Assembly: GCA_903959855.1 (NCBI GenBank)
Contig: CAJBYR010000185.1
Span: 1 to 36,223 of the forward strand
Direction of reading: 5' to 3'
DNA: 36,223 nt
From: an uncultured beta proteobacterium
GTDB lineage: Bacteria > Pseudomonadota > Gammaproteobacteria > Burkholderiales > Rhodocyclaceae
The first letter of the stretch is position 1. Every line of letters begins with the position of its first letter. Position numbers and translations under genes: made by a program. The notes below the pieces were generated by a model that saw only the letters and a program-made list of their open reading frames with translations, was not told the DNA's origin and did not search any database. This document shows positions 8,283 through 28,433 of the stretch, piece by piece.

Positions 8283-8390
8283 GGATTGGGAGGGCGGGGT
8301 GTTCTGCGCAGCGAAGTAAAGGGGGAGGAGTCGCCCGCAGGGCGACGACGGAGGACATGAGCGGAGTAGAACGCCCCGCCCTCCCGATCC
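8283..8390 (+). repeat. Structured repeat copy 1 between cusB and cusA (108 bp, RNA-like fold)
   Basis: The outer arms 8283-8307 and 8366-8390 pair over 25 bp with no mismatch, using three G-T pairs (8287/8386, 8300/8373, 8306/8367). Between them are the block AGTAAAGGGGGAGGAG (8315-8330), a perfect 6-bp hairpin TCGCCC-GCA-GGGCGA (8331-8345) and CGACGGAGGACATG (8346-8359). The two blocks are identical in copy 2 at 28326-28433, while the arms and inner stem differ in sequence but still pair. On the plus strand the odd pairs are G-U, so the plus strand is the likely RNA sense, antisense to the cus operon. I do not recognise the family. Confidence 0.85.
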
Positions 8391-8423
8391 CGCGCAAACG
8401 AAAGACCAGCAGCGGGTTTCATC

Positions 8424-9995
8424 CTAATGCCCCTTATGCGCGGCAGAGGCGCCCTTGGCGTCCATCTTCGTTATCACCCACTCACCCGGCCCGCGCTCGA
8501 CGAACTCGATGGTGATGGGAGCACCGGCCTTGAGCTTGGCCAACAGCCCCGGATTGGCGAGGATGAAGTCCATGGTCATCGCCGGCCAGTTGAGGCTGGC
8601 GACCGGGGCGTGGGTCACGGTGACGGTGCCGTTCTTTGCGTCGATGGCTTCCAGTGTGCCGACGGCCTGGTGGCTGACCGAGGACTTGGTCGCCTTGTCC
8701 GGCGTGGCGGCGGGCGCCGCCGTCAGGCCGGAGAGCGCAGCCTTGAGGTTGCTTTCGGCGTCGATCAGGAAGTTGGCCGCGACCACTACCGCATCGCCCG
8801 CGGCGATGCCTTCGCGTACCTCGACGTATTCGTCACTACGCTGGCCGAGCTTGACCTCGCGCGGCTCGAAGCGGCCGGCCGCTTTCTGCAACAGCACGAT
8901 CTGCCGCGTGCCGCTGTCGATCACGGCCGACACCGGCACCGTCAGCACCCGCTCCGCGCCGCCGATTGCCAGCTCGACGTTGGCATACATGCCGGGCTTG
9001 AGCAGGCCGCCGGGATTGGCCAGCTCGATGCGCACCGGGATCGTTCGCGTTTCCGTCTTCAGCGTCGGATAGATGTAGGCCACAGTGCCCGCGAAGCTCT
9101 TGTCGGGATAAGCGTTGATTCCCAGCTTGACCTTCTGCCCGGACTTGATGGCGCCGATGTCACGTTCAAAGACGTCGGCCAGCACCCAGACCGCGGACGT
9201 ATCGGCGATCTGGTAGAGCATCTCGCCGGGCATGAAGCGCATGCCCGCGACGGCCTTTTTTTCCAGCACCACGCCGCCGGCCGGAGACAGGAAGGTCAGC
9301 GTGCGCTTCGCCTCGCCGCCCGCGGCCAGCGCCTTCACCTGCTCCTCGGAAATATCCCAGTTGCGCAGCCGCGCGAGGCCGGCGTCGGCCAGCTGCTTCA
9401 TGCCTGACTGCGTTTCCGGGCTGGCGTCCTTGAGCGCGGCAATGCCCCTGGCCGCCACCGCGTATTCACGCTGTGCCGAAACCAGCTCGGGGCTGTACAC
9501 CTCGAACAGCGGCTGGCCCTTGCCCACCGGCTGGCCCGTGGCATTGACATGCAGGCGCTCGATCCAGCCCTCGAACTTGGCGCTCACGGTATGCACCCGG
9601 CGTTCGTCGAACTCGACCCGACCCGCCGCGGTGACCTGGCGCGCCAGCTCGCGCAAAGTCGCCGGCTCGGTCTTGACCCCCAGCTTCTGCACCTTCTCGG
9701 TACTGATCTTGAGCTCGCCGGCGGCAGAAGGCTCGTCCTCCCCTTCGTACACCGCGATGTAGTCCATGCCCATGGAATCTTTCTTCGCCACCGGCGAAGT
9801 GTCGGGCAGGCCCATGGGGTTGCGGTAGTAGAGCAGCTTGCGCGGCTTCTGGCTGCCGGCCTCGGGCGCGGCAGCCGGCGCTGCCGCCGCAGTCGCCGTG
9901 TCGCCGGCGCCGACTTTCTTCCTTGCGCCAGCCCAGTAACCGACGCCGATGGCCAGCATCAGGGCCACGACCACACCCAGAGATTGCGATTTCAT
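8424..9995 (-). CDS. cusB: CusB periplasmic adaptor with N-terminal metal-binding domain and fused C-terminal CusF domain
   Basis: This 523-residue membrane-fusion protein links CusA to CusC in the periplasm. The order is: an N-terminal membrane anchor (about 5-22); an Ala/Pro linker; a heavy-metal-binding domain (about 52-85, YYRNPMGLPDTSP, DSMGMDYI); barrel-sandwich and helical hairpin regions (about 125-230, GWIERLHVNATGQPVGKGQ); beta-barrel and membrane-proximal domains to about 430; and a CusF-like beta-barrel (about 441-511). The CusF domain has His462, Trp470, Met473 and Met475, with the 8-3-2 spacing of the E. coli CusF copper site (His36, Trp44, Met47, Met49). The tail ends AAHKGH. 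Its ATG overlaps the cusC stop (ATGA, 9992-9995). The fused chaperone domain probably hands Cu(I) directly to the pump (inference). Confidence 0.93.
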   Translation of the reverse strand: MKSQSLGVVVALMLAIGVGYWAGARKKVGAGDTATAAAAPAAAPEAGSQKPRKLLYYRNPMGLPDTSPVAKKDSMGMDYIAVYEGEDEPSAAGELKISTEKVQKLGVKTEPATLRELARQVTAAGRVEFDERRVHTVSAKFEGWIERLHVNATGQPVGKGQPLFEVYSPELVSAQREYAVAARGIAALKDASPETQSGMKQLADAGLARLRNWDISEEQVKALAAGGEAKRTLTFLSPAGGVVLEKKAVAGMRFMPGEMLYQIADTSAVWVLADVFERDIGAIKSGQKVKLGINAYPDKSFAGTVAYIYPTLKTETRTIPVRIELANPGGLLKPGMYANVELAIGGAERVLTVPVSAVIDSGTRQIVLLQKAAGRFEPREVKLGQRSDEYVEVREGIAAGDAVVVAANFLIDAESNLKAALSGLTAAPAATPDKATKSSVSHQAVGTLEAIDAKNGTVTVTHAPVASLNWPAMTMDFILANPGLLAKLKAGAPITIEFVERGPGEWVITKMDAKGASAAHKGH

Positions 9996-11257
9996 AGTTC
10001 TTCTCCCACCATCTTTTCGATCTCGGCCAGGCGTACCTGCTGGTCGCCGCGCGCCTTGACCAACTCGGTACGCGCGCGCCGCAGCTGGCGATGCGCATCC
10101 AGCACCGCGGCAAAATCCGCGCGCCCGGTCTCGTAGGCCGCCAGGGCGGCGTTGAGGTTGACTTCCGCCTGCGGCAGCAGCCCTCCAACAACCAGAGATT
10201 CAAGCCGTTGTGCCACTTCCAGCCCCGCCACGCTCTGGCCCAATTCGGCCAGCGCCAGGTTGAGCTCGCTCTGGCGGCGCAGGCGCGCCGCCTCAAGATT
10301 GAGTTCGGCCTCGCGCTCCTGGGCGCGACGGCTGTCGCGTTGCAGGGGGATGTTGATCTCGAACATCAGCTCCCATTGCGAAACCCGGTTGCGGGTCTGC
10401 GTCGGCGACACGCCCAGCGTGACATCGGGATAGCGATTCAACTCAACCAGTTCCCGCGTCTTCTCGGCGCCGGCGATACGTGCATCCGCCGCTGCCAGTT
10501 GCGGGTTGTTGGCGCGCAGCCGATCTTCCAGCGCCGGCAAGGCCAGTTTGGCCACCGGCGGCAGGGTGCGCAGCAACTCGGGCGGGCGCAACTTGACGTT
10601 CTCCGGCCGGCCGAGCAGCGCACGCATGCGCGCGCTGGCCTGGGTGCTTTCGCCTTCCAGCATCGCCAGGTCGGTTTCCATGGCGATGATCTCGGACTGC
10701 GCACGCAGGGCATCCTGCTGGCCACCGAAACCGCTGGCATAGCGGGTACGCGCGATGTCGGCAACGCGGCGCATGAGGTCGAGGTTTTCCTTGGTGTAGC
10801 GGATGCTCAGCAGATGCACATGGTGCTGGGCGTAAGTCAGCTTGATGCGGGTTGCCAGGTCGATCCAGCCGGCACGGGTCCTGGCGTTGGCCTCGGTCGC
10901 GCCGGCACCGGCCACGTCGCGCCGCAGATCGCGCTTGCCCGCCCAGGGCAGGGCCTGGCTGAAGGTGTAGCGTGCACCGCCGATGCGCGGCGGCAGCACA
11001 TTGGCGCTGGCGTCGAGCCCTTCATTGGTGACGTCGCGCAATTCGGTACGCAGTATCGGATCGGGCAAGGCCCCGGCCGGCTCGATGCGCGCGGCAGCCG
11101 ACTCGGCCTCGGCACGCAGGGCGGCAAACTCGGGATGGTGCTCGCGGGCGAATTCGAGCAGGCTCTCGACGCGACCGCCGATCAACTGCTCCGCCGCCTG
11201 CGCGTGCAGGCTCGCTGCGGCGGCCAGGGCCGCCAGCAGCGCCAGATGGGAGGCCAC
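9992..11257 (-). CDS. cusC: CusC/TolC-family outer membrane efflux protein
   Basis: This 421-residue outer-membrane channel forms the exit duct of the copper efflux complex. It has a cleavable signal peptide (MASHLALLAALAAAASLHAQA), so it is exported. No lipobox cysteine is seen, unlike E. coli CusC, which is a lipoprotein. Two long helical repeats typical of the OEP family (roughly 25-210 and 225-415) are visible, with REHHPEFAALRAEAESAAARI in the first and AALAAYETGRADFAAVLDAH in the second. The start is GTG at 11257, four bases after the cusF stop. The stop overlaps the cusB ATG. Substrate is assigned from the operon, since OEP sequences carry little substrate information. Confidence 0.92.
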   Translation of the reverse strand: MASHLALLAALAAAASLHAQAAEQLIGGRVESLLEFAREHHPEFAALRAEAESAAARIEPAGALPDPILRTELRDVTNEGLDASANVLPPRIGGARYTFSQALPWAGKRDLRRDVAGAGATEANARTRAGWIDLATRIKLTYAQHHVHLLSIRYTKENLDLMRRVADIARTRYASGFGGQQDALRAQSEIIAMETDLAMLEGESTQASARMRALLGRPENVKLRPPELLRTLPPVAKLALPALEDRLRANNPQLAAADARIAGAEKTRELVELNRYPDVTLGVSPTQTRNRVSQWELMFEINIPLQRDSRRAQEREAELNLEAARLRRQSELNLALAELGQSVAGLEVAQRLESLVVGGLLPQAEVNLNAALAAYETGRADFAAVLDAHRQLRRARTELVKARGDQQVRLAEIEKMVGEEL

Positions 11258-11261
11258 GGCC

Positions 11262-11573
11262 CTACTTCGCGGCTTCGATGCTGACGACGGTCAGGTTGCC
11301 CTTGACCTCGGCAGCGCGAAAGCGAACCTTGTCGCCCTCCTTGAAGCCTTTGAGCATCGCCGGATCCTTGGCGGTAAAGCTCATGGTCATGGGCGGCATC
11401 TTGAGGTTGGTGATCTCGCCGTGGGCGATGGAAACCTTGCCCTTGGCGGCATCGATCTTCTTGATCACGCCGTCGGACTCCGGCAGATGGCCGTCATGGG
11501 CCTGGGCGTGGACGGCAAACGAGGCGAACAGCAGGATTGCCAGGGCGGCAAAAAAACGTGCGAAGCTTTTCAT
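11262..11573 (-). CDS. cusF: CusF-like periplasmic copper-binding chaperone (Met variant)
   Basis: This 103-residue exported protein has a signal peptide (about 1-24, ending VHAQA) and a small OB-fold barrel. The copper-site residues are His51, Met59, Met62 and Met64 (KMPPMTM), with the 8-3-2 spacing of E. coli CusF His36/Trp44/Met47/Met49. The Trp that caps copper by a cation-pi contact in E. coli is Met59 here. The CusF domain fused to CusB next door keeps the Trp, so the operon encodes one domain of each type. The ATG at 11573 has GGGAG 8 bp upstream. Two hairpins lie just upstream (11603-11645). It probably carries Cu(I) in the periplasm to CusB or the pump. Confidence 0.9.
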   Translation of the reverse strand: MKSFARFFAALAILLFASFAVHAQAHDGHLPESDGVIKKIDAAKGKVSIAHGEITNLKMPPMTMSFTAKDPAMLKGFKEGDKVRFRAAEVKGNLTVVSIEAAK

Positions 11574-11602
11574 GAAGAAACTCCCGATAGACGATACGAA
11601 CA

Positions 11603-11645
11603 GGCGCCCGGAAACCACCGGGCGCCGACCTGAATTGCTCAGGTC
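11603..11645 (-). promoter_or_regulatory. Tandem hairpins between the small exported protein gene and cusF
   Basis: Two adjacent perfect inverted repeats are visible. GGCGCCCGG pairs with CCGGGCGCC around a 6-base loop (11603-11626), and GACCTGA pairs with TCAGGTC around a 5-base loop (11627-11645). The second overlaps the stop codon of the upstream gene. No T-run follows on the minus strand, so this is more likely a processing or stability element, or a weak attenuator, than an intrinsic terminator. It precedes the start of cusF by about 30 bp. Confidence 0.45.
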
Positions 11646-12034
11646 GCGTCTCTGGGAGGATGTTGCGGCGGTTCGGCAATATGGCTGGGGGGGGCCACGA
11701 TTGCCGGCAATGCGTAGCTGGTGTGGCTCGACAGCAATCCGTCGGGCAAGGCCGCGCTGGGCATGAAACCGGCGCTGGCCAGATGGCAGATCCCGCAGTT
11801 GTCGCAATCGTCCTGGTGCGCAGGTGCATCGTCGGCCATGGCTTCATGGCAGGGCATCGCTGATTCAGTGGCCTCATGCATTGCCGCGACAGCGCCCTCG
11901 TGTCCCTGCATGTTCGTGCAGACGGACACGGAGAGGCCGGCCATGGTCTGCACGGGCAGCCAGAGCGCGACGAACAGCAGCAGGAAGCGGACGAATCGTT
12001 GACTCACGGTACCGAGACTACGCCCGACGGCCAT
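11639..12034 (-). CDS. Small exported Cys/His/Met-rich protein at the head of the cus genes (DUF2946-like)
   Basis: This 131-residue protein has a hydrophobic segment (FVRFLLLFVALWLPVQTMAG, about 14-33) that reads as a signal peptide. The mature part is rich in His, Met, Asp and Cys: CTNMQGHEG, MHEATESAMPCHEAM, DDAPAHQDDCDNCGICH. This resembles small exported proteins often placed in copper operons (DUF2946-type), but the family call is tentative. CxxCxxC combined with His/Met clusters suggests periplasmic metal binding (inference). The start is uncertain: ATG 12034 is used here, and GTG 12007, which would begin just before the hydrophobic segment, is possible. Neither has a good Shine-Dalgarno. 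It begins 22 bp after the EF-G-like gene, so the cus genes may be read from a promoter inside or upstream of that gene. Confidence 0.72.
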   Translation of the reverse strand: MAVGRSLGTVSQRFVRFLLLFVALWLPVQTMAGLSVSVCTNMQGHEGAVAAMHEATESAMPCHEAMADDAPAHQDDCDNCGICHLASAGFMPSAALPDGLLSSHTSYALPAIVAPPSHIAEPPQHPPRDAT

Positions 12035-12056
12035 CCATTGCAAGCTATGGAAGTGC

Positions 12057-14108
12057 TCACTCTTCCTCTTCCCTCGGCCGGAAGGCCTCCGCGAGCTTCT
12101 GCTGCACCTGGGGCGGCACCTGCGCATGGCGTGCAAACTCGATGCTGTAGGCGCCCTGCCCGCCGGTCAGCGACTTCAGGCGCGAGGCGTAGTCGGTAAT
12201 CTCGGCCAGCGGCACTTCACCGGTGATCGAGGCCGTGTTGCCCGGACGCGGATTGGTGCCGGTGATATGCCCGCGCCGGCTCGAGAGGTCGCCCGTGAGG
12301 TCGCCGATCGCCGCCTCGGGAGCGACGATCTCGATGGTGACGATGGGCTCCAGCACGATAGGCCCGGCGGCACGGATGGCCTCGATGGTCGCCTTGCGCC
12401 CGGCGGTGACGAAGGCCACGTCCTTGCCATCCACCGCATGGGTCTTGCCGTCATAGACAATGACGCGGATGTCCTGGGCCGGAAAGCCGGCGATCACGCC
12501 ATCAGCCAGGGCCTGGCGCACGCCCTTCTCGACAGAGGTCATGAATACGCCGGGAATCACGCCGCCCTTGACCCGATCGACGAACTCGAAGCCGGCGCCG
12601 CGCTCCATCGGTTCGATCTTGAGGTACACCTCGCCGAACTGGCCGGCACCGCCCGACTGCTTCTTGTGCCGGCAATGGCCCTCGGCGTTGCCGGTGATGG
12701 TTTCGCGGTAAGGAATCAGCGGCGGCCTGGTATCGAGTTCCAGCTTGAACTGCGTCGCCATCTTTTCCAGCTTGTAGCGCAGGTGCATTTCGCCCAGGCC
12801 GCGGATCACGGTTTCGTGCGTGGTCGGGTGGCGCTCGACCTCGAAGCAGGGATCTTCCAGTTCCAGCTTGTGCAGGATGTCGAACAGGCGCTGCTCGTCG
12901 CCCTTGCGCTTGGTCTCCACCGCCAGGCCCTGCATCGGCCGGGGGAACTCGAGCGGCTTCAAGTGGATGTGGTCCTCGTCGTGCGAATCGTGCAGCACAG
13001 CGTCGAAGTCGATTTCCTCGATCTTGGCGATGGCGCCGATGTCGCCCGGCATCAGCTCGTCGACCTCGATGTAGTCCTTGCCTTGCAACTGGTAAAGATG
13101 GCCGGCCTTGAAGGGCTTCTTGCTGTCGCCGACGAAGAGCTGGCTTTCCTTCTTCATCGTGCCCTGATGCACGCGGAAGACACCGACCTTGCCCATGTAG
13201 GGATCGGCGATGACCTTGAAGACATGCGCCAACACGTGCTTCGTCGCATCGGGAACCGCAGCGAAGGCCTGCGTTTCGCCACCCAGCTCGCCCTTGTAGA
13301 ACGGCGGCGGGTTGCCCTCGGTCGGGTTGGGTGCCAGCGAGGCCAGCACGTGCAGCAGTTCGCCGATGCCGGCGCCGGTGCGCGCCGAGGTGAACAGGAT
13401 GGGGATCAGGTGGCCGGAGCGCAGCGCCTTCTCGAAGGGCGCATGCAGGTCGGCGGCACTCGGGTCCTTGCCCTCGTCGAGATACTGCGCCAGCAGCGAT
13501 TCGTCCTCCTCGACCAGTTGGTCGATCAGCTCGCGATGGGCGTGGGCGACCGAGTCGAAATCCGCATCACCGGCATCGTGCTCGAGCACTTCAACGACCT
13601 CTTGCCGGCCGTGCGCGGGCAGGTCGAGCAACAGGCACTCCTTGCCGAAGCGCTCGCGGATCTGGTTCACCAGCTCCGGCAGATCGACGTTGTCGGCGTC
13701 GATCTTGTTGATCACGATCATGCGCGCCAGGCCGCGTGCCTGGGCCGCGCGCATCATGCGTTCGGTGGCGAGTTCGATGCCGGTCTGGGCATTGATCACC
13801 ACGATCGCGGTCTCGACCCCGGCCAGCGCAGCTACCGCCTGACCGGCGAAATCCGGATAGCCCGGGGTATCGATCAGATGCACATGCACGCCTTCGGCGG
13901 CGAAGTTAACCAGTGCGGAATTCAGCGAATGGCCGGCGGCCTTTTCCTGGGCATCGAAGTCGCAGACAGTGTTGCCCTTTTCGACGGAACCCTTGGCCGC
14001 GATCGCGCCGGCCTTGAACAACAATGCTTCCGCCAGCGTGGTCTTGCCGGCGCCGCCGTGACCAACGAGGGCCACGGCACGAATCGATTCGGTGCTGTAC
14101 TTCGCCAT
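12057..14108 (-). CDS. Elongation factor G-like GTPase (FusA2-type paralogue)
   Basis: This 683-residue translational GTPase has the five-domain EF-G layout: G domain (1-270), domain II (about 285-400), domains III-V to the end with QSGGAGQFGEVYLKIEP in IV. The nucleotide motifs depart from housekeeping EF-G. The P-loop is GHGGAGKT (16-23, not AHIDAGKT), the switch I RGIT is AGHS (58-61), and switch II is DTPGYPDF (80-87), where Tyr84 replaces the catalytic His of DTPGHVDF. NKID (134-137) is intact. Such changes are typical of the FusA2/EF-G-like group, whose members may have weak or altered GTPase activity and unclear roles. The C-terminus ends with an acidic tail EEEE. GGGAG precedes the ATG by about 10 bp. 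It is not near rpsL/rpsG/tuf, further evidence that it is a paralogue. Confidence 0.88.
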   Translation of the reverse strand: MAKYSTESIRAVALVGHGGAGKTTLAEALLFKAGAIAAKGSVEKGNTVCDFDAQEKAAGHSLNSALVNFAAEGVHVHLIDTPGYPDFAGQAVAALAGVETAIVVINAQTGIELATERMMRAAQARGLARMIVINKIDADNVDLPELVNQIRERFGKECLLLDLPAHGRQEVVEVLEHDAGDADFDSVAHAHRELIDQLVEEDESLLAQYLDEGKDPSAADLHAPFEKALRSGHLIPILFTSARTGAGIGELLHVLASLAPNPTEGNPPPFYKGELGGETQAFAAVPDATKHVLAHVFKVIADPYMGKVGVFRVHQGTMKKESQLFVGDSKKPFKAGHLYQLQGKDYIEVDELMPGDIGAIAKIEEIDFDAVLHDSHDEDHIHLKPLEFPRPMQGLAVETKRKGDEQRLFDILHKLELEDPCFEVERHPTTHETVIRGLGEMHLRYKLEKMATQFKLELDTRPPLIPYRETITGNAEGHCRHKKQSGGAGQFGEVYLKIEPMERGAGFEFVDRVKGGVIPGVFMTSVEKGVRQALADGVIAGFPAQDIRVIVYDGKTHAVDGKDVAFVTAGRKATIEAIRAAGPIVLEPIVTIEIVAPEAAIGDLTGDLSSRRGHITGTNPRPGNTASITGEVPLAEITDYASRLKSLTGGQGAYSIEFARHAQVPPQVQQKLAEAFRPREEEE

Positions 14109-14147
14109 GATGCAGAACTCCCTTTTCTTTTGGTATTGCGTCGAATT

Positions 14148-14591
14148 CTAATCCTCCCGCCGCGGCTGGTCGCGTGACGGAATCCGCCACAGCCAGATCG
14201 CCGTGGCGAGCCCGATCACCGCCAGCATGACCTGCAACCACGGCTTGTCTGCCATGGTCCAGATCGACACGCTGATGGTCAGGCTCATGAGGGTGATGGC
14301 CAGCCACTTGATGCGATGCGGAATGCTGTGATGGCGCCGCCACTCGATGATCAGCGGGCCGAACGTCGGGTTGTGCAACAGCCAGCGGTAGAAGGGCTCC
14401 GAGGCCCGCGCATAACAGGCGGCGGCGACCAGCACGAAGGGCGTGGTCGGCAGCCCGGGTACGACGATGCCGATGATGCCCAGCAGCAGCGCGATGCTGC
14501 CGCAGGTCCAGAGCACGATGCGCACCAGCAGCGAAGGATGCAGCTCCGCCTCGGGGATTTCCCAATCCGGCTCCAGCGGCGCGTTGCTCAT
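14148..14591 (-). CDS. DUF454 (YbaN-type) inner-membrane protein
   Basis: This 147-residue membrane protein belongs to the YbaN/DUF454 family, of unknown function. The family signature GIVVPGLPTTPFVLVAAACYARAS follows a first hydrophobic segment (about 21-45). A second membrane region comes late, with two segments at about 95-112 and 117-135. The conserved soluble stretch F-RWLLHNPTFGPLIIEW lies between. The start ATG (14591) overlaps the stop of the radical SAM gene (ATGA, 14588-14591), so the two are co-translated. Homologues are commonly found beside haem, electron-transfer or motility genes, which gives no firm clue here. Confidence 0.88.
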   Translation of the reverse strand: MSNAPLEPDWEIPEAELHPSLLVRIVLWTCGSIALLLGIIGIVVPGLPTTPFVLVAAACYARASEPFYRWLLHNPTFGPLIIEWRRHHSIPHRIKWLAITLMSLTISVSIWTMADKPWLQVMLAVIGLATAIWLWRIPSRDQPRRED

Positions 14592-16480
14592 CCGCGCAAC
14601 GCCCGCGATATGAAATTGCGCGGCACGGTGGTTTTCGGCACGCGTCCGGCAAACCAGCCGCGCACGTCCTGCTCCAGGCCGATACCGTGCATGTAGTTGT
14701 AGAGCGCCTTGTTCAGCGCCTGCCCCAGCACGTCGTGGTCGACACCCGTGGGATCGATGAAGCCGACGTCGTTCTTTGCAAAGCGCCCCGCACGCAGCGG
14801 CTTCAAAGTGACGCCGTAGCGCTCGGGATGCAGGCCCACCGGCGCATGCACGCTGCAGGCGAAGCGATGGAAAAAGCCGGACTGGATGCAGCCGGCGGCG
14901 AACAGCTGGCGCACATACTCCAGGGCATCGACCGTGTCCTGCACCGTCTGCGTCGGGAAGCCGTACATCAGGTAGGCATGGACCAGGATGCCGGCCTCGG
15001 AGAAAGCATGCGTAACGCGCGCCACCTGGTCGACCGAGACGCCCTTCTGCATGAGTTTCAACAGGCGGTCGGAGGCCACTTCCAGCCCGCCCGATACCGC
15101 AATGCAGCCGCTGTCGGCCAGTTCGGTGCAGAGTTCCGGGGTGAAGGATTTCTCGAAGCGGATGTTGCCCCACCAGGAGATCGAACGCTTGCGCTTGCGC
15201 AGTTCCTCGGCCAGCGCCTTGAGTGCCTTGGGCGGCGCGGCCTCGTCGACGAAGTGAAAGCCGGTCTGCCCGGTCTCGGCGACGATGGCTTCGATGCGAT
15301 CAACCAGGGTGACGGCCGCCAGCGCCTCGTAGCGCGAGATGTAGTCGAGCGAGACATCGCAGAAGCTGCACTTCTTCCAGTAGCAGCCGTGGGCCACGGT
15401 GAGCTTGTTCCAGCGCGCGTCGGACCAGAGGCGGTGCATCGGGTTAAGCATGTCCAGCAGCGACAGGTAACGATCCAGCGGCAGGCCGTCCCAGGTCGGC
15501 GTGCCGGCCTCGGCAAAGGGAATGTCCGGCTCTTTGGCGTCGATGTAGCGCACGCCCTCTGCGCCGCGCAGGAAGGTGCGCACCAGCCGTTCCTGCGGGC
15601 GCTCGCCGCGCAGGTGCTCAAGCAGTGCCAGCAGCGGCCGCTCGCCATCGTCGAGCGTGACGTAGTCGAAATAATCGAATACCCGGGGTTCTGACAATTC
15701 GCGCAACTCAGTATTTACGTAGCCGCCGCCGAGCACCGTGACAATGTTCCGGTCTTGGGCCTTGACAGCCTGGGCGATGCGGAAAGCGGCATACACGTTG
15801 CCCGGGAAGGGCGCCGAGAGCAGCACCACTTGCGGCGCGTGATGCGCGACGGCGGCCAACGCCAGCTCGCGCAGCGTGGCGTCGATCAGGTTCTCCGGCG
15901 CCGCAAGCGCATTGGCCAGCGGCTCGAAACTGGCCTGGCTCTGCGCCAGCGATTCGGCATAGCGCACGAACTCGAAGCGCGCATCGACCGCCTCACGCAA
16001 CACGTCGGCCAGGTCGTCGAGGTAGAGCGTGGCGAAGTGGCGTGCGCGATCGGTCACCCCCAGCGCGCCGAAGGCCCAGGCCAACGGATCGCCACCCTCA
16101 TCGTCGACATACACATCGAGCGCAGAGAAGCGCGAACCCTCGGGCAGAAAGCGACGGCCGACGATGCGATGCGCGATCGAGGGATCACGCCCCTGGAGGA
16201 AGGCGACGGCCGGCGCCACCGTCGCCAGATACTCCTCGAACTGCTTCAGGAAGGCGGCGACGCGCGGCGTGCGCTGCTTTGCCGGGATCGCCTCGGCGAC
16301 GGCGCAAAGCGCCAGCAAACCCTCGGGCGAGAACAGGCGCAACACCAGTGCCAGCGCCAGGTCCTCCTGCACTGCCGTGACGCCGCGCGAGCGCAGGAAA
16401 CCTGTCAGGTAGGCGGTCGACGGATACGGCGTGTTGAGCTGCGTCATCGGCGGGATGAGCGAGAGCACGCGCGGTGTCAT
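14588..16480 (-). CDS. B12-binding-domain radical SAM protein
   Basis: This 630-residue iron-sulfur enzyme is predicted to use SAM and possibly cobalamin. An N-terminal region of about 200 residues is of unknown role. A B12-binding-like Rossmann region (about 203-290) follows, with PQVVLLSAPFPGNVYAAFRIA and VLGGGYVNTELREL. It lacks DxHxxG, as is usual for this class. The radical SAM barrel starts with HGCYWKKCSFC, giving Cys366, Cys371 and Cys374 in a Cx4Cx2C spacing, one residue longer than the classic Cx3Cx2C but known in related B12-type proteins. The chosen ATG (16480) gives an N-terminus MTPRVLSLIPP typical of the family; a longer in-frame start would overlap the SRAP gene. Substrate unknown. 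It overlaps the DUF454 gene downstream. Confidence 0.86.
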   Translation of the reverse strand: MTPRVLSLIPPMTQLNTPYPSTAYLTGFLRSRGVTAVQEDLALALVLRLFSPEGLLALCAVAEAIPAKQRTPRVAAFLKQFEEYLATVAPAVAFLQGRDPSIAHRIVGRRFLPEGSRFSALDVYVDDEGGDPLAWAFGALGVTDRARHFATLYLDDLADVLREAVDARFEFVRYAESLAQSQASFEPLANALAAPENLIDATLRELALAAVAHHAPQVVLLSAPFPGNVYAAFRIAQAVKAQDRNIVTVLGGGYVNTELRELSEPRVFDYFDYVTLDDGERPLLALLEHLRGERPQERLVRTFLRGAEGVRYIDAKEPDIPFAEAGTPTWDGLPLDRYLSLLDMLNPMHRLWSDARWNKLTVAHGCYWKKCSFCDVSLDYISRYEALAAVTLVDRIEAIVAETGQTGFHFVDEAAPPKALKALAEELRKRKRSISWWGNIRFEKSFTPELCTELADSGCIAVSGGLEVASDRLLKLMQKGVSVDQVARVTHAFSEAGILVHAYLMYGFPTQTVQDTVDALEYVRQLFAAGCIQSGFFHRFACSVHAPVGLHPERYGVTLKPLRAGRFAKNDVGFIDPTGVDHDVLGQALNKALYNYMHGIGLEQDVRGWFAGRVPKTTVPRNFISRALRG

Positions 16481-16490
16481 GACGTATGAC

Positions 16491-17171: not shown

Positions 17172-17243
17172 GTCGGGGCAGCGTAGTCCGCAAACCGCCA
17201 AGCCTACCCGATCACGGCCGCGCCGGCGACGAAATCGCCGTCG

Positions 17244-19571: not shown

Positions 19572-19756
19572 GCTGAATGCAGCACACTGTGACGGCGTTG
19601 CGGGATGGCCATTTTGCCCGTCCCAGGCCGGTTAGGCAAATCGCATTTATTACGGAGGTGATAGATCCGGAGGTCGGAAGCGTTGAAAACACCCCTGCAC
19701 CACGGGCTCGACGGTCGTGATCGGATATGCTTCACTATTGCCCCTGGAGGAAAGAA

Positions 19757-20650
19757 TTGAGTGAAATCCAGCGCTTCGGCGCGGTCAGCGTCCATCTTGG
19801 ACACAAATCAGGGAAATACCCCGACGGAAACCAGGTACTGGTCCGCGGACCGGAACTGCGCGTCGCATTCGATACCCCGCTGGTTGCCAACCGCATCGGA
19901 GTCGACTTCGATGCGGTTGAATTGGTCATCCTCGGCCATGTGCACGAGGACCACATGGCGGGCCTCCATCGCGTGCCCAAGGCGGGCGTCCAGGTACACG
20001 AGGCCGATCTGCGCGCCGCACAATCCTGGCCCGGGCTTTGCGCGCACTATGGCTACCCGCCCGATGTGCTGGCGGAAATGAAGACCCTCGTCGAGCGCGA
20101 CTTCCACTATGTGCCGCGCCCCGACGCCACGCCCTACATCCACGACCAGCGCTGGGAACTCGGCGGCGGCGTGCAGATCCGCGCCCACCACCTGCCGGGC
20201 CACACCTCAGGCCACTGCGCGCTGATCGTCGAGAGCGAAGGCGTCGCCTTTATCGGCGATATCGACCTGACCGGATTCGGCCCCTACTATGGCGATGCCA
20301 CGTCCAGCCTAAAAGCGTTCCGCAAGAGCCTGGCCGAGGTCGCGGACCTCGACGCCCGCGTCTGGGTCACCTCGCATCACCGTGCCGTGATCACGGACAG
20401 GACGAAATTCCTGTCAGACCTCGCCGGATTCGCCAGCAAGATCGACGAGCGCAATGAAAAGCTTATCGGCTATCTGCGCGATGGTCCGCAGAGCCTCGCT
20501 GAGCTGGCGCAGCGACGACTGCTCTATCCACCGGGCTTCAGCCTGCCTTACGTCGAAAGCGCGGAGCTCAATTCGATCCGCATGCACCTCGACGAACTCG
20601 TCACGCAGAGCGTGGTGCGCAAATCCGGCGACTGTTTCGAACTGGCCTGA
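19757..20650 (+). CDS. Metallo-beta-lactamase-fold hydrolase
   Basis: This 297-residue cytoplasmic protein has the dinuclear metal motifs of the family: HVHEDH (61-66), HHLPGHTSGH around residue 155, GDIDLTGFG (the bridging Asp) and a later conserved His in VTSHH. A C-terminal helical, winged-helix-like tail (RDGPQSLAELAQRRLLYPPG) is present, as in hydroxyacylglutathione hydrolase or LACTB2-like relatives. The start is best placed at TTG 19757, since GGAGG sits 6 bp upstream; an in-frame ATG at 19727 has no Shine-Dalgarno and adds ten residues (MLHYCPWRKE). It lies alone on the plus strand between two GGDEF-EAL genes. Substrate unknown. Confidence 0.85.
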   Translation: MSEIQRFGAVSVHLGHKSGKYPDGNQVLVRGPELRVAFDTPLVANRIGVDFDAVELVILGHVHEDHMAGLHRVPKAGVQVHEADLRAAQSWPGLCAHYGYPPDVLAEMKTLVERDFHYVPRPDATPYIHDQRWELGGGVQIRAHHLPGHTSGHCALIVESEGVAFIGDIDLTGFGPYYGDATSSLKAFRKSLAEVADLDARVWVTSHHRAVITDRTKFLSDLAGFASKIDERNEKLIGYLRDGPQSLAELAQRRLLYPPGFSLPYVESAELNSIRMHLDELVTQSVVRKSGDCFELA

Positions 20651-20712
20651 TCGACACAGGCGATGGCCTCGGTGAAATGTTTCATGCCTGAGCACGGAGT
20701 CCCGCGCAGGGG

Positions 20713-23700
20713 CTAACTTCGGCCACGCACGAATTCAGCGAAATCCTCCGGCAGGAGCGGCCGGCTGTAGTAGTAGCCCTGCACCTCGTGGCAGCCAAAT
20801 TCTCGCAGGAAGGCAAGCTGTTCTGCGGTTTCCACGCCCTCGGCGATGGTCCGCAAGCCAAGGCTATCCGCGAGGCTGATCACGGCACGGACGATGGCCT
20901 TGCTTTCCGGATCGGCCGAGAGATCGCTGACGAATGACTGATCGATCTTCAGCTTGTACACTTGGAAGCGCTTGAGATAACTCAGCGAGGAGTAGCCGGT
21001 GCCGAAATCGTCGATCGACATGCGTACGCCACAGGCATACAGTTCGTCCATTACCGCGATCGCCGCCAGGGGATCGTCCATGGCCACGCCTTCGGTCAGT
21101 TCGAGCTCAAGGAACTCCGGCGCCAGCCCCTCGTCGGCGAGCGCCCGCGTCACCAGTTCGGGCAGGTGCGCGTGGCGGAACTGCGCCGCCGAGAGGTTGA
21201 TCGCCATGATCATGGGTGCCAGGCCGTCATCCATCCAGGCCTTCATTTGCCGGATCGCGGTGCGCAGCACCCACTCGCCTATGGGCAGGATCAGGCCGCT
21301 ATCCTCAGCCACGGAAATGAACTCCGCCGGCATGACCTCGCCGAGTTCAGGATTGTGCCAGCGCAACAAGGCCTCGGCGCCGACCACGCGCCCGTCTTCC
21401 AGCGACAGCTGCGGCTGGTAGAGGAGCTGCAATTCGCCGCGCGCCAGCGCATTGCGCAAGCCACCTTCCATGCGCAGGCTGCGCACCGAGTGTTCCTGCA
21501 TTTCGGGGGTGAAGAAACGGAAGGTATTGCGTCCGTCCTGCTTGGCGCGATACATGGCCGTGTCGGCCGACCGCGAAAGGGTCTCGAAATCCTCGCCGTC
21601 GCTGGGATAAATGGCAATGCCGATCGATGGCGTGACCACCAGTTCGTACTGCTCCACCTTGACGCTGTGCGCGATCATCTCGATCAGCTTCCTTGCCACA
21701 TGGGCGGCGCCGTCGGCATCGGTTCCCGGCAGGATGACGACAAATTCGTCGCCTCCCTGGCGCGACACCGTGTCTTCCTTGCGTGTCGCCTCCACCATGC
21801 GGTTGCCGACCTCGACCAGCAATTCGTCCCCGATGCGATGCCCCAGCGTGTCGTTGATGTTCTTGAAGTGATCGAGATCGAGAAACAGCACGGCCAGTTG
21901 CTCGCGGCTGCGTTGCGCCATGCCCAATGCGTGGCGGGCGCGGTCGTGCAGCAACGCGCGGTTGGGCAGACCGGTCAACGCATCGAAATGGGCCAGGCGC
22001 TGGATACGCGCCTCCGCCTCCTTGTGCCGGGAGATGTCGCTGAAGATGCCCACGTAATGGCTTGCCGTGCCGTCGGCACCCAGCACGCGGCTGATCGCCA
22101 GCCATTCAGGATAGACGTGGCCATCCTTGCGCCGGTTCCAGATCTCTCCCTGCCAATGACCGGTGGCATCGATAGATTCCCACATCTCGCGGTAGAACTC
22201 CTGGCCCTGGCGCCCCGAGGAAAGCAGGCTAGCGCCCTGCCCCAGTGCCTCGGCTTCGCTGTAACCGCTGATTTCGCTGAAGGCACGATTGACGCGCAGG
22301 ATCCGGCCCGAGATGTCGGTGATCATGATGCCTTCCTTGCCCTGCTCGAACACCTCGGCGGCCAACTTGATGTTGGCCTCGCGATCGAAGCCGTCCAGGG
22401 CGTAGCTGATGTCCGCCGCCATCTCCTCCAGCAAGCGGCGTGCATCCTCGTCGAAGGCGCTGGCATCGCCGGCATACAGATTGAAGGTGCCGATCACCTG
22501 CCCGCCACGATGCAAGGGAAGCGAGGCAACGGCGCCCCAGGCATACTGAACGGCCCGTTCGCGCCATGGCGCGGTTAGCGGATCGTTGAGGAAATCCTGG
22601 TTCCACACCGGCCGGTCCTCGCGCAGCGCCGTGCCGACCGGGCCGCGCCCGTGGGCATCGACGGCATCGACGGTAATGTGGATGCCGTCGAGGTAGGCCA
22701 GGCCGGAGCCGAAGCTGGCCGCCGGACGCACCCTGCCGGTAGCCTCGTCGAGCAGGCCGATCCAGGCCATTTTCATGGCGCCGAATTCGACCACGTCGCG
22801 GCAGATGGAGGCATACAACTCCTCGGCACTGGTACACCGCACGATCGCCTGGTTGCACTCGCTGAGCGCCGCGTAGAGATTGGTCAGTCGCCGGATGCGC
22901 TTCTCCGCCGCCTTGCGCGCACTGATGTCGCGATCGACGCCGCGATAGCCGAGCAGGTGTCCGTCGCGGTCGAGGATCGGGGTGCCGCTGGTCAGCGTGA
23001 TGTGCGCTTTGCCGTCGCGGCCCAGCACGACGTTCTCCATGTCGGAGAAGGCGCGTTTTTCCCCGGCAATGGTGGCGAACGCCGCCCCGACCGCCTGCGC
23101 CTCAGCCGGCTGCATGAAATCGAAGGGCGTCCTGCCGACCACCTCCTCCGGCGCATAGCCCAGCATGAGTCGCACGCCTTCCGAAACAAAGGTGTAGCGG
23201 CCGGTGGCGTCGACCTCCCAGATCCAGTCCGCCGACACTTCCGCCACGTCGCGGAAGCGTTGCTCGCTGCGCCGCAGTTCCTCTTCGGCCTGCTTGCGCG
23301 CATTGATGCTCATGCCGGTTCCGCGCAGGCCGATCACCTGGCCGAAGTCGTCGCAGAACACCGAGCCATAAACTTCCTCCCACCAGATCTCGCCCGACGG
23401 CGTGATGTCGCGATGCTGCAGGCGGAAGCCGGACTTGGCGGCGACCGCGCGCGTGACTATCGCGCCGACGGCGGCGATGTCCTCCGACGGCATGAATTCC
23501 ATCGGTGTGTGGCCAAGCAAGGCTTCCGGCGGATGGCCCTTGACCCGGGTCGACTGGCCCGAGACGTAGGTGTAGACCATGTCGGAGTCAATCTCCCATA
23601 GGTAGGCACCGGCCGCATCGCTCATGTTGCGGAAGCGCTGCTCGCTGGTGCTGAGCTGTTCCGTGCGTTGCGCGACCAGGCCCTCCAGGTCGGACTTGTA

Positions 23701-24618
23701 GAAGCGCAGCTCGAACACCAGCTTGGCCACATACGCCAGCAACAGGCTGAACAGCAGCGCCAGGCTGGCGCCGAGTGTCACTCGCGCCGGATCGCCCCAG
23801 CCCTTGAGCGGCGCGACACTCAGGTACCACTTGCCGTTGGGCAGCTCCAGTGCCTGTTCCACCGGCTCGACCAGGAGCTCCGGTCCCGAGCGCGCAATGA
23901 CCTGCCGCTCGCCGCTGTCTGGGTGAGGGCGCCAAAGCTCGTAAACATAGCCCTGGGCGCTCAACTGGCCGAGGTGGGCTTCGTCCAGCACCTCCGGAAA
24001 ACGGATCAGAACCGTCGCGAAACCCCAGAACACCTTGCGACCTTCGCCGAGGAACACCGGCAGCCTGCCCACCGCGCCGAGGCCGCCCTGGATCAAGGTA
24101 AAGGGCCCCGCCAGCGTCAGCCGGCCCGAGACGCGGGCGAGAAAGGCCTCCTTGTTGCGCACCGGATCCTGCAGCAGGTTGTGCCCGATGGCTTTCTCGT
24201 TGCCTTCCAGCGGGACGATCTGACTCACTATGCCGTCGGGCGCCAGTTGCAGCGACGCCGCACCGGGGTAATAGGGCAACATCTGCCGCGCGGTCTCTTC
24301 GAATTCGGGTACCCGCCCGTTGCCCTGTCGCACCAGCGCGGCCAGCGCATAGGTCGCCGAGAGGGCGCGCTCAATGTTCCGTTGCAGGGCCTGGGCATGA
24401 TCGCCGGCCATGTCGGCGACCCGCTCGCGCGCCTGCTGCTCGCGCTGCTGCTCCGCATTCCAGACGAGCATGCCGCCAATCAGCAGGGACAGCAAGAAGG
24501 AGGCAAACGCCACCGCCAGTGAATGGGATTTGCGCTCCGCCAGGGCAGGCCACCGGGTGCTCGAACCGACCTGTCCGCCCGAAGGCGGCTCGGCTTGTTG
24601 CGGCGAAGGCTGTGACAC
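20713..24618 (-). CDS. CHASE-PAS-PAS-GAF-PAS-GGDEF-EAL cyclic-di-GMP sensor protein
   Basis: This 1301-residue inner-membrane signalling protein has a first TM segment (about 33-53), a periplasmic CHASE sensor domain (about 80-270, with LTLAGPFTLIQGGLG), a second TM segment (281-301), a short coiled coil, two PAS domains (about 330-450 and 453-575), a GAF domain (about 590-745), a third PAS (about 757-870), GGDEF (about 880-1045) with intact RQGGDEF, and EAL (about 1055-1300) with EALLRW, DDFGTGYSS and EGVET. Both catalytic modules look competent. CHASE domains sense small extracellular ligands. The PAS-GGDEF-EAL part resembles the other c-di-GMP protein upstream (both share SSGRQ-EFY/DFY and GEIWNRRK), which suggests duplication. 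Confidence 0.94.
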   Translation of the reverse strand: MSQPSPQQAEPPSGGQVGSSTRWPALAERKSHSLAVAFASFLLSLLIGGMLVWNAEQQREQQARERVADMAGDHAQALQRNIERALSATYALAALVRQGNGRVPEFEETARQMLPYYPGAASLQLAPDGIVSQIVPLEGNEKAIGHNLLQDPVRNKEAFLARVSGRLTLAGPFTLIQGGLGAVGRLPVFLGEGRKVFWGFATVLIRFPEVLDEAHLGQLSAQGYVYELWRPHPDSGERQVIARSGPELLVEPVEQALELPNGKWYLSVAPLKGWGDPARVTLGASLALLFSLLLAYVAKLVFELRFYKSDLEGLVAQRTEQLSTSEQRFRNMSDAAGAYLWEIDSDMVYTYVSGQSTRVKGHPPEALLGHTPMEFMPSEDIAAVGAIVTRAVAAKSGFRLQHRDITPSGEIWWEEVYGSVFCDDFGQVIGLRGTGMSINARKQAEEELRRSEQRFRDVAEVSADWIWEVDATGRYTFVSEGVRLMLGYAPEEVVGRTPFDFMQPAEAQAVGAAFATIAGEKRAFSDMENVVLGRDGKAHITLTSGTPILDRDGHLLGYRGVDRDISARKAAEKRIRRLTNLYAALSECNQAIVRCTSAEELYASICRDVVEFGAMKMAWIGLLDEATGRVRPAASFGSGLAYLDGIHITVDAVDAHGRGPVGTALREDRPVWNQDFLNDPLTAPWRERAVQYAWGAVASLPLHRGGQVIGTFNLYAGDASAFDEDARRLLEEMAADISYALDGFDREANIKLAAEVFEQGKEGIMITDISGRILRVNRAFSEISGYSEAEALGQGASLLSSGRQGQEFYREMWESIDATGHWQGEIWNRRKDGHVYPEWLAISRVLGADGTASHYVGIFSDISRHKEAEARIQRLAHFDALTGLPNRALLHDRARHALGMAQRSREQLAVLFLDLDHFKNINDTLGHRIGDELLVEVGNRMVEATRKEDTVSRQGGDEFVVILPGTDADGAAHVARKLIEMIAHSVKVEQYELVVTPSIGIAIYPSDGEDFETLSRSADTAMYRAKQDGRNTFRFFTPEMQEHSVRSLRMEGGLRNALARGELQLLYQPQLSLEDGRVVGAEALLRWHNPELGEVMPAEFISVAEDSGLILPIGEWVLRTAIRQMKAWMDDGLAPMIMAINLSAAQFRHAHLPELVTRALADEGLAPEFLELELTEGVAMDDPLAAIAVMDELYACGVRMSIDDFGTGYSSLSYLKRFQVYKLKIDQSFVSDLSADPESKAIVRAVISLADSLGLRTIAEGVETAEQLAFLREFGCHEVQGYYYSRPLLPEDFAEFVRGRS

Positions 24619-24681
24619 TCTGCGGCGACTCCTGTCGTTGAAGCCGTCAGTGTAGCGTGTCGGCCACCTTCATTGACGTCC

Positions 24682-24705
24682 GGGCAGCACGACGCTGTGC
24701 AGCCC
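24682..24705 (-). terminator. Candidate weak terminator downstream of pobA
   Basis: An imperfect hairpin (24682-24690 with 24697-24705, one A-A mismatch, 6-base loop) lies about 30 bp after the pobA stop, at the 3' end of the aromatic operon. No T-run follows on the minus strand. The surrounding 116-bp gap (24619-24734) holds no gene. Confidence 0.25.
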
Positions 24706-24734
24706 CGACAGGTGCCGCGACCCGGCCACCGGAC

Positions 24735-26774
<2,040 letters not shown>

Positions 26775-26775
<1 letters not shown>

Positions 26776-27131
26776 TATTTTCTTCCCGCGGCGACAAGCT
26801 TCGCCTTGAATTCATCCTTGGTGACGCCGGTCTGCTGGGCGCCGATATCCTGCATGTCCAGCCCGAAGATGCCGCCCAGCTTGGCCAGGTAGTAGGCATT
26901 GCCGCCGGCGGCGAGCATGTCCAGCACCTGCAGGCTGAGCACCGCCTGCTTCTGCTCGGCGTTGAGGCCGTACTTGTCGCAATAGCCTTCCTTGTCCTTG
27001 AGGAACTCAGCGCGGTTATCCGCCGAGTTGAAGGAAAAACACATTTTGTTCAGCGCGTAGCCCTTGCGCGCCATGTCGCCGTCGAACAGCGTGGTGCCGG
27101 GTATCACCCGCTTCTGTTTGCCGCTACTCAT
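26775..27131 (-). CDS. LigA-type dioxygenase alpha subunit (second copy, short form)
   Basis: This 118-residue small subunit of the LigAB-type dioxygenase lines the active site and helps hold the substrate. Family signatures IPGTTLFDGDMARKGYALNKM, EGYCDKYGLNAEQKQAVL and GGNAYYLAKLGGI are clear. It is shorter than the other alpha subunit (30300-30743, 147 residues), lacking the C-terminal tail after the KDEF segment. The start at ATG 27131 is preceded by AGGAGG. It overlaps the beta-subunit start by one base, so the two are produced together. Confidence 0.88.
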
Positions 27132-27147
27132 CTCCTGCCTCCTGTGA

Positions 27148-28143
27148 TCAGTTCGGGAATGTCTCGGTGTCAATTTCCAATTGGGTGGCCGCGTTGTAGC
27201 GCGGGCCCGTCACGGTCTGCTGGTTGATGAGCGCGTCGAGCCGCTCGACCATGATGCGGTCGAGCGACACGGCGGCCGCCCCGGCGTTATCGTCAAGATG
27301 CTCCGGCTGCCGGGTGCCGAAGATCGGAATGATGTGTTCGCCCTGCGCCAGCAGCCAGGCCAGCGCCAGCTGGGCCGGCGTGCAGCCGACCTCGCTGGCG
27401 ATGCGCATGTACTCGGGTAGCAGTTCGAGGTTGGTGGCGTAGTTGGCCGCCTCGAAGCGCGGCATCTGGCGACGGATGTCCTTCGCTTCAAGCTGTGTCT
27501 CGGGATCGCGCAGGGTGCCGGTGAGGAAGGCGCGCGCCAGCGGGCTGAAGGCGACGTAGGCAGTGCCCAGCTCGCGGCAGGCGGCCAGCGTGGCGATCTC
27601 GGCGTTGCGAGACCACAGCGAATACTCGGATTGCAGCGCCGCGATCGGGTGCACTGCATGCGCGCGCCGTAGCGTCAGCGCCGACACTTCGGACAGACCG
27701 ATGCTGCGGATCTTGCCGGCCTGCACCAGGTCAGCCAGCGCTCCGACGCTGTCCTCGATCGGTACCTGCTTGTCCCAGCGGTGCAGATAGTAGAGGTCGA
27801 TCACGTCGGTCTGCAGCCGGCGCAGGGATTCGTCGCAGGTGCGCTTCAAAGTCGCCGGGCGGCCGTCGATCACGCGCTTGCCATCGACACCGGTCATGCC
27901 ACATTTGCTGGCCAGCACGAACTTGCGCCGATGCGGCTTGAGCACATTGCCGAGCAGGGTCTCGTTGTTGCCGAATCCGTATAGGGCGGCGGTGTCGAAG
28001 AAATTGATGCCGTGGTCGAGCGCGCGCAACAGCAATTTGCCCGCTGCGTCCGCCGGCGGCGGTGTGCCGTAGGCGTGGCTGAGGTTCATGCAGCCGAGGC
28101 CGAGGGCCGAGACTGCGAATTCTCCGAAGTGGCGTTGTTGCAT
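27148..28143 (-). CDS. Aldo/keto reductase
   Basis: This 331-residue NADPH-dependent oxidoreductase has a TIM-barrel fold of the Tas/YajO type. The catalytic tetrad is visible as Asp and Tyr in NFFDTAALYG, Lys in FVLASKCG and His in LYYLHRWD. The cofactor-binding tail IPIFGTRQPEHLDDN is also present. It begins the downstream half of the aromatic cluster, right after the gap with two structured repeats, and ends 17 bp before the short ligA-like gene. A role in reducing an aromatic aldehyde or a ring-cleavage intermediate is possible but only inferred. There is no Shine-Dalgarno sequence before its ATG. Confidence 0.9.
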   Translation of the reverse strand: MQQRHFGEFAVSALGLGCMNLSHAYGTPPPADAAGKLLLRALDHGINFFDTAALYGFGNNETLLGNVLKPHRRKFVLASKCGMTGVDGKRVIDGRPATLKRTCDESLRRLQTDVIDLYYLHRWDKQVPIEDSVGALADLVQAGKIRSIGLSEVSALTLRRAHAVHPIAALQSEYSLWSRNAEIATLAACRELGTAYVAFSPLARAFLTGTLRDPETQLEAKDIRRQMPRFEAANYATNLELLPEYMRIASEVGCTPAQLALAWLLAQGEHIIPIFGTRQPEHLDDNAGAAAVSLDRIMVERLDALINQQTVTGPRYNAATQLEIDTETFPN

Positions 28144-28177
28144 TTCAGTGGTTCCGCATCGCTAGGCGTCGAGGCCC

Positions 28178-28279
28178 GCCAAGGACAACGGGTATCCGAT
28201 TCCCTCCGTGTCCCCCGGGCCGAAAAAGCACCGGCCCTCCTCCTTTACCTGCGGGAATCGGATACCCGCCATCCTTGGC
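28178..28279 (-). repeat. Structured repeat copy 3 (102 bp, minus strand, diverged)
   Basis: It lies in the 325-bp gap between ligC and the aldo/keto reductase gene. The arms 28189-28204 and 28253-28268 form a perfect 16-bp inverted repeat, extended by an 8-bp stem (28178-28185 with 28272-28279) across a 3x3 internal loop. Read on the minus strand, the inside has GGTAAAGGAGGA, a 6-bp hairpin GGGCCG/CGGCCC with a 9-base T-rich loop, and GGGGGACACGGAG. These blocks match copies 1 and 2 (GTAAAGGGGGAGGA; GGAGGACATGGAG, 11 of 13), but the arms do not. It is placed back to back with copy 2, 46 bp apart. Confidence 0.78.
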
Positions 28280-28325
28280 AGGATACGTCTGTGGTTTCGG
28301 GCGGCCAACCCCCACGGCGGGTCCT

Positions 28326-28433
28326 GATCTGGCCGGTGGGGGGCTCTGCTCCGCGTAAGTAAAGGGGGAGGAGCTGGCCGCAGGCCGGCGACGGAGGACA
28401 TGGAGCGGAGCAGAGCCCCCCGGCGGCCAGATC
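28326..28433 (+). repeat. Structured repeat copy 2 (108 bp) between ligC and the aldo/keto reductase gene
   Basis: The outer arms 28326-28353 and 28406-28433 pair over 28 bp, with one G-T pair and one G-G mismatch. The inside has AGTAAAGGGGGAGGAG (28358-28373), the hairpin CTGGCC-GCA-GGCCGG (28374-28388, one G-T pair) and CGACGGAGGACATGGAG (28389-28405). It is exactly the length of copy 1 at 8283-8390 and shares its inner blocks and GCA loop. The stems differ by changes on both sides that keep pairing. The rest of the gap (28144-28177, 28280-28325, 28434-28468) shows nothing else recognisable. Confidence 0.85.

Follow-up and report, generated by a model that had tools for sequence, protein, structure and literature searches.

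What has been kept in two stretches of DNA that share short conserved blocks, while their outer arms differ in sequence and still pair: an RNA, a DNA structure, or the ends of something mobile? The two stretches, each exactly 108 bp long, lie at positions 8283-8390 and 28326-28433 of a 36,223-nt contig (CAJBYR010000185.1, assembly GCA_903959855.1) from an uncultured beta proteobacterium of the Rhodocyclaceae, the whole of which is called the window here. An original prediction, made from the letters alone, had read them together with a diverged third copy as a likely undescribed structured RNA or DNA element, and both copies and their common blocks were confirmed from the sequence. They belong to a family that is real, widespread and undescribed in the sources searched, and that is defined by its fold rather than by its sequence. 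The element has moved, its paired arms covary and its insertions carry a coupled reading frame. We consider it probable that the family consists of non-autonomous mobile DNA elements in which two outward-pointing hairpins replace terminal inverted repeats and whose ends are recognised as a folded single strand.

The RNA folds of the two 108-bp copies are far more stable than expected (z -9.6 and -9.3 against 200 shuffles, none of which was as stable). The third copy, on the minus strand, is equally real (z -8.4 in a shuffle test), with bounds at 28175-28282 and not at 28178-28279 as first given; it is, however, not a separate copy: together with 28326-28433 it makes up a single insertion with two hairpins, in which the two copies lie 154 bp apart and point outward. 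The copy at 8283-8390 is a solo one, its partner being gone except for a remnant of one arm (Table 1). In all three window copies the strand that carries the conserved core blocks gives the more stable RNA fold and the complementary strand a weaker one, and with DNA folding parameters the core strand was again the more stable in each. The core pattern was found at 12 places in the genome of the window and at none in a reversed control, which excludes chance.

Each hairpin consists of a long variable stem, an internal loop formed by [R]GTAAAGGRGGAG and CGGRGGACA[Y]G, and a short variable stem of about 2-12 pairs that is mostly capped by a GNA loop, and a single pairing register (5′ arm, [R]GTAAAGGRGGAG, inner stem, CGGRGGACA[Y]G, 3′ arm) is common to all arm types. 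The first copies of the family were found by pattern; of 332 relaxed matches, the 305 whose arms paired at 12 or more of 20 positions were kept, leaving 171 after removal of redundancy. For covariation we used 62 of 117 sequences, on which a covariance model of 91 positions was also built. Among the 62 sequences, 31 of the 32 pairs change on both sides, with 490 double-changed cells against 136.7 (sd 10.5) after shuffling, and pairing reaches 88.5% in register, falling to 34-40% when the partner is slid by one base. The claim that the fold is under selection, its paired arms varying while its unpaired blocks are conserved, is thus borne out over many copies, with covariation far above shuffles.

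The internal loop covaries as well. In the 171 non-redundant copies the purine-purine position is A.G in 130, G.A in 33, A.A in 7 and G.G in 1, and the purine-pyrimidine position is A-T in 104, G-C in 65 and something else in 2. The purine-purine association also holds outside the genus (126 copies, G.G = 1, Fisher 1e-15 uncorrected for relatedness), and several copies have A-T, with the antiparallel register unchanged, instead of the G.G step adjoining this position. Such covariation is consistent with purine pairs stacked in antiparallel fashion between the two helices. A G-quadruplex, considered for the GGRGGA repeats, was dropped in view of this antiparallel change of G.G to A-T, and GGA sites of the CsrA type were dropped as candidates, the conservation being wider and covarying.

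The original prediction had also set the copies apart from transposons, and this contrast fails, since the element is inserted, with an 8-bp target duplication, and is present in some genomes and absent from others at orthologous positions of three loci. At the first site (28.1-28.5 kb of the window), 6 of the 15 genomes aligned are filled, 8 are empty and 1 holds another insert; in genome G018, CATTTCAG flanks the element on both sides. The second site (8.2-8.4 kb), for which 27 loci were aligned, is filled in three genomes, those of the window, G030 and G018, while the other genomes aligned lack the element, and the partner hairpin that the window has lost is present in G030 (loci L133/L160) and interrupted in G018 (L132), another palindromic insert splitting one of the two hairpins in each of these two genomes. 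The third site is filled in 11 genomes, the flanks of which overlap by exactly 8 bp when compared with nine empty genomes and by 7 bp with one more, and unrelated sequence occupies it in two further genomes. The duplicated 8-mer is here CTGACATG or CTGAAATG in the sense of the operon, and the target within the genus is a TGA-N-ATG junction of adjacent co-directional genes. Terminal inverted repeats were not found in the 37 elements compared, the two ends (AAAccCG and TTGcTCC) sharing on average 3.5 of 15 identities, which is about chance. Target duplications and conserved arm sequence had been named beforehand as marks of a miniature inverted-repeat transposable element (MITE), and only the former are seen.

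The duplicated target holds a stop and a start codon, and a reading frame in the sense of the operon opens at the ATG beside the stop of the upstream gene. This frame is open through both hairpins in 61 of 80 elements, against 25 of 160 for the other frames (Fisher 3.6e-20, relatedness ignored). The count was drawn from 110 co-directional rows, some elements appearing in both orientations, 30 of which had no start near the stop, and in several of the rows scored as not open a GTG had been picked ahead of the true ATG. For 44 open frames the downstream start could be identified, and in 39 of them the stop of the frame and that start together form TGA-N-ATG or ATGA; in the window the frame ends 18 nt ahead of the next start codon. 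Taken modulo 3, the lengths between the start codon and the point where the second core ends put 49 rows into classes of 34, 12 and 3, and none of six internal ORF peptides had a Pfam match. Since the hairpins are read in different frames and Pfam gives no match, it is probably not the peptide that has been conserved, and a protein-coding gene was rejected because the same hairpins fall in different frames in different copies. The simplest reading is that those insertions survive that preserve translational coupling and avoid polarity.

A mechanism can be proposed along these lines. A transposase would recognise each end as a folded single strand, namely the core strand, and the arms would be free to drift as long as they remain paired, because it is the fold that is recognised. 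The duplicated target would bring a stop and a start codon, so that a stop-free insert could become an extra cistron; such insertions would then survive since the extra cistron keeps translational coupling and avoids polarity. Selection appears to maintain the fold after insertion as well, a hint that something still binds or uses the folded strand where it lies. The complete picture, a mobile element whose ends are defined on opposite strands by a covarying single-stranded DNA fold with a conserved antiparallel purine-purine internal loop and that targets stop-start junctions, forms a coupled cistron and has its fold selected after insertion, is put forward tentatively, as having somewhat less than an even chance; if true, it would be a DNA analogue of structured RNA that occurs in nature and is vertically conserved.

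The family is patchily distributed. By exact core pattern it occurs in 17 of 61 related genomes (none in the reversed control), these being 16 of the 31 genomes of the genus, own genome included here and in the samples that follow, and one from another family; one of the 15 genus genomes without an exact copy, G002, has a diverged copy. The covariance model found it in 13 of 299 genomes sampled across the order (10 of 140 genera) and in 3 of 274 sampled across the class, and the exact pattern in 2 of 299 sampled across the phylum. A scan of named species gave at least 120 stretches, and the matches listed include Rubrivivax, Rhodoferax, Hydrogenophaga, Ideonella, Rhizobacter, Aquabacterium, Variovorax, Methylibium, Paucibacter, Oxalobacteraceae, Sulfurisoma and Sulfuritalea, and, in the Xanthomonadaceae, Luteimonas and Pseudoxanthomonas. 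A set of 118 copies contained 30 two-copy loci, every one divergent and 151-240 bp from start to start, and from one start codon to the next the unit measures 301-373 nt (44 elements), the element itself being about 300-365 bp long in the genus and its relatives. Copy numbers are lower bounds, the model having scored 14-15 candidates per genome. Seven core-pattern places lie less than 200 bp from the start of a contig (in G001, G008, G013, G022, G030 and G048), and the hairpins may therefore break short-read assemblies and be under-counted. No match to the window element was found in plasmid and phage collections. In a prophage-like IMG/VR contig of 42,780 bp, outward copies lie near both ends (L281:476-521 and L282:7370-7413), as might result from the insertion of a phage close to two hairpins or between them.

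Is the fold still in use where the element has settled? At the third site the arms of orthologous copies differ by 30% (B-type hairpin) and 41% (A-type hairpin), and 325 of 330 cells still pair, with no A.C among them. Over 199 orthologous pairs from 22 sites (drawn from the same site with arm identities of 75% or more; the pairs overlap), one-sided changes gave 280 G.T against 5 A.C and 132 other mismatches, and double changes were compensated in 241 cases and uncompensated in 10; the hairpins, here as at the third site and in the identities given next, had been accepted on a pairing that allowed G.T, which introduces a slight bias. Mean arm identity is 0.733 between orthologues, 0.559 between paralogues within a genome and 0.545 between unrelated copies, and since paralogues are barely closer than unrelated copies, nothing points to gene conversion within genomes. 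These observations are what would be expected if the element had become a DNA site used by the host, mobile in origin only, whose folded or supercoil-extruded strand is bound by a chromosomal protein, as proposed for repetitive extragenic palindromic (REP) elements and BIMEs. However, 15 of the 31 genus genomes and most genomes sampled in the order do without an exact copy or the element, and we know of no protein that binds it. In addition, the nearest relative of 115 shared-site hairpins was at the same site in 53 cases, in the same genome in 12 and in neither in 50, so that some sites may have been hit repeatedly; a quarter of the same-site comparisons have an arm identity of 0.52 or less, and both figures speak against simple vertical descent. 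We regard a host site with its mobility in the past as unlikely, though likelier than the other rivals.

The alternative of a structured RNA, in which the core strand of each hairpin would be copied into RNA and function in that form, draws on the very stable RNA folds and on the tolerance of G.T and not of A.C. However, the two hairpins lie on opposite strands, one of them antisense to the operon, and both are constrained. Among 52 elements that carry a coupled frame, counted with unfiltered arms and so free of the bias mentioned above, mismatches are G.T in 65 and A.C in 2 cases in the sense hairpins and G.T in 84 and A.C in 1 in the antisense hairpins, so that each is constrained on its own core strand. 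Single copies between co-directional genes are sense in 14 cases and antisense in 12, by crude gene calls and with some of them perhaps being pairs whose partner was missed, and no promoter-like site was found at the two-hairpin copy of the window, its spacer (28283-28325) included. The operon mRNA would, moreover, be translated through the hairpins. At the apex, 101 of the 171 copies have a GNA triloop, 98 of these being closed by C-G, whereas 3 have GNRA and none UNCG, and DNA mini-hairpins with GNA or GNNA loops are described as extraordinarily stable in PMC4686876. A comparison with Rfam gave no match over threshold in the window, and at the element just three microRNA models (E 0.73 to 5.9), far under their cut-offs. 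Each of the points on strand asymmetry, orientation, promoter and loops is by itself compatible with RNA, and it is their joint weight that would favour a fold acting as single-stranded DNA. Where the original prediction had allowed for RNA or DNA, RNA is the less likely of the two given the strand asymmetry and the GNA loops, and we hold it to be improbable.

Long palindromes are also subject to correction by template switching during replication, which copies one arm onto the other and could produce paired arms with no selection on the fold, and the arms do change fast and symmetrically at one site. However, such correction predicts equal numbers of G.T and A.C and the erasure of the conserved A.G mismatches, neither of which is observed, and it leaves the conserved loops and their covariation unexplained. 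As the sole cause it is refuted by the G.T/A.C asymmetry and is thus very improbable, while it may add to the rate of change.

Table 1. Features of the two insertions and their surroundings in the window
Feature	Position	Strand	Basis
Remnant of the outer arm of the lost A-type partner, GGCGCCAAGGATGGCGGG	8222-8239	-	site alignment
Solo hairpin, B type (outer arms, blocks and inner stem)	8283-8390	+	sequence, fold
Solo copy, conserved 5′ block	8315-8330	+	
Solo copy, inner stem, GCA-capped	8331-8345	+	
Solo copy, conserved 3′ block	8346-8359	+	
Insertion at the stop-start junction of a CusB/HlyD-like and an AcrB-like gene	8175-8427	.	site alignment
CusB/HlyD-like gene flanking the solo insertion	8424-9995	-	
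AcrB-like gene flanking the solo insertion	start codon inferred at 8177	-	
Aldo/keto reductase gene	27148-28143	-	
Target-site copy CTGAAATG, A side; its end is the aldo/keto reductase start codon	28141-28148	-	
Reading frame across both hairpins, 101 codons, beginning at the stop of the upstream gene; no Pfam match	28162-28467 (also counted as 28165-28467)	-	
A-type hairpin, sense to the operon	28175-28282	-	fold
Spacer separating the two outward hairpins	28283-28325	.	
B-type hairpin, antisense to the operon	28326-28433	+	fold
B-type hairpin, 5′ block	28358-28373	+	
B-type hairpin, inner stem	28374-28388	+	
B-type hairpin, 3′ block	28389-28402	+	
Target-site copy GTGAGATG, B side, diverged; contains the oxidoreductase stop and the ATG of the element frame	28465-28472	-	
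GFO/IDH/MocA-type oxidoreductase gene, upstream of the two-hairpin insertion	28469-29431	-	

Several copies carry a different short palindromic element nested in their core (GGCTTGCC...GGCAAGCC with GCGGAGCA..TGCTCCGC), namely L124 (G007), L132 (G018), L160 (G030) and L088 (G027). In G010 an unrelated inverted repeat, TTCGCCCTGAGCCTGTCGAAGG..., lies at the junction of the first site (L114), and this junction would therefore attract or tolerate several types of element. Single copies from some records of the Oxalobacteraceae and of other Burkholderiales (L174, L185, L190, L274 and L301) are closely flanked by convergent genes; some of these copies have long arms, and in such a position they could act as a bidirectional block. 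Another dispersed motif, AGTCGGCGCTG(N)5ACGGCG, occurs in both orientations and is found in the window at 2064, 5263, 9894, 17232, 27660, 31594 and 32304.

A number of observations weigh against a mobile element recognised as folded DNA. Junction targeting holds in the genus and a few relatives only: the two-copy loci (n = 35, from locus L161 on plus the window) comprise 20 between co-directional, 9 between convergent and 6 between divergent genes, and 24 of 56 single copies outside genes lie between convergent genes by crude gene calls, 14 single matches within predicted genes having been excluded from the counts of gene orientation. The coupling argument is therefore inapplicable to these settings outside the genus. 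Neither a transposase nor an autonomous version was found among the genes beside the copies or at two wide-spaced loci. No transposase was recognised in an all-against-all comparison of 3,978 ORFs from 149 loci, in which the 25 largest clusters of neighbouring ORFs were judged by eye, with no family search. The two wide-spaced loci, at which outward cores stand about 1.7 kb apart (L185 and L340), were considered as candidates for an autonomous element without result; they appear to hold an HtpX-like gene (L185) and a Fic-like gene (L340). Young identical paralogues are likewise missing among the 37 elements compared, the closest pair within a genome being 88% identical; the two closest pairs of all occupy the same junction in different genomes. 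RNA folding energies favour the core strand just as DNA parameters do, and G.U tolerance is typical of RNA. The copies are related, and the shuffle and Fisher values thus overstate their independence. Finally, the G.T/A.C asymmetry between orthologues is not what would be expected of a relic that is purely selfish, so that either the host still makes use of the fold or the fold is still being acted on at its site.

Conserved loops together with compensatory changes are usually taken as proof of an RNA, and here they are found on both strands of one element, sense and antisense to the operon of the host, so that the element can serve to test whether folds of single-stranded DNA undergo RNA-like selection. 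The stop-start junction duplicated around an open frame would be a way into operons without breaking their expression, and the element provides a defined bait for seeking a transposase or a structure-specific DNA-binding protein in common environmental bacteria.

No description of the present element was found in the open-access literature searched, and several known systems resemble it in part. Like REP elements, BIMEs and REPINs, it is palindromic and intergenic, occurs as head-to-head dimers and solos, shows complementary stem changes and is presumed to be mobile. REP elements are characterised, in the sections of PMC3733652 that deal with them, as 20-40 bp long, with a GTAG or CGTC tag, and as forming dimers. 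The present hairpins, when set against that account, are longer (about 91-108 nt), with far more variable arms and a conserved purine internal loop, the element having an 8-bp duplication and no dependence on RAYT; a GTAG or CGTC tag as hairpin foot is absent from the conserved letters of 171 copies. Membership in the REP/REPIN family with mobilisation by a RAYT (Y1, HUH) transposase is the least probable of all readings, for, although the inverted head-to-head pairs and solos, the hairpins and their mostly intergenic position are as in the REP dimers described in those sections (PMC3733652), Y1_Tnp (PF01797) occurs in 40 of 53 genomes, many of them without exact copies, and is absent from the carriers G018, G467 and G455, each at least 99% complete, while the conserved blocks hold no GTAG tag, the unit is far longer and the duplication is of 8 bp.

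Prokaryotic MITEs, as outlined in part of PMC10969869, share with the present element the small size, the lack of a transposase gene, the target-site duplication and the empty sites; it differs from them as so outlined in that no terminal inverted repeats were found, in being GC-rich and in having ends that are conserved as folds. The Rickettsia palindromic elements covered by the same source are likewise small, palindromic and mobile, with open reading frames that fit the coding of the host. However, they often lie within genes and have a conserved peptide, in so far as that account goes (PMC10969869), whereas the present element lies between genes and is read in varying frames. BREs (Beta-proteobacterial repeat elements), in the portion of PMC3110155 that presents them, are dispersed GC-rich repeats of about 90 bp from overlapping lineages (Bordetella, Polaromonas, Rhodoferax, Azoarcus), and they are described as head-to-tail tandem repeats with more than 70% identity, from which the present element would differ in arrangement. 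Head-to-tail arrays were not seen among the copies listed here, the locus L259 having two same-strand copies 504 bp apart. Integron attC sites and the ends of IS200/IS605 elements, which a tyrosine recombinase or an HUH enzyme processes on single-stranded DNA, are recognised as folded single-stranded DNA and have variable arms, as we propose for the present element; however, both of their hairpins lie on one strand, whereas those described here are inverted and lie on opposite strands.

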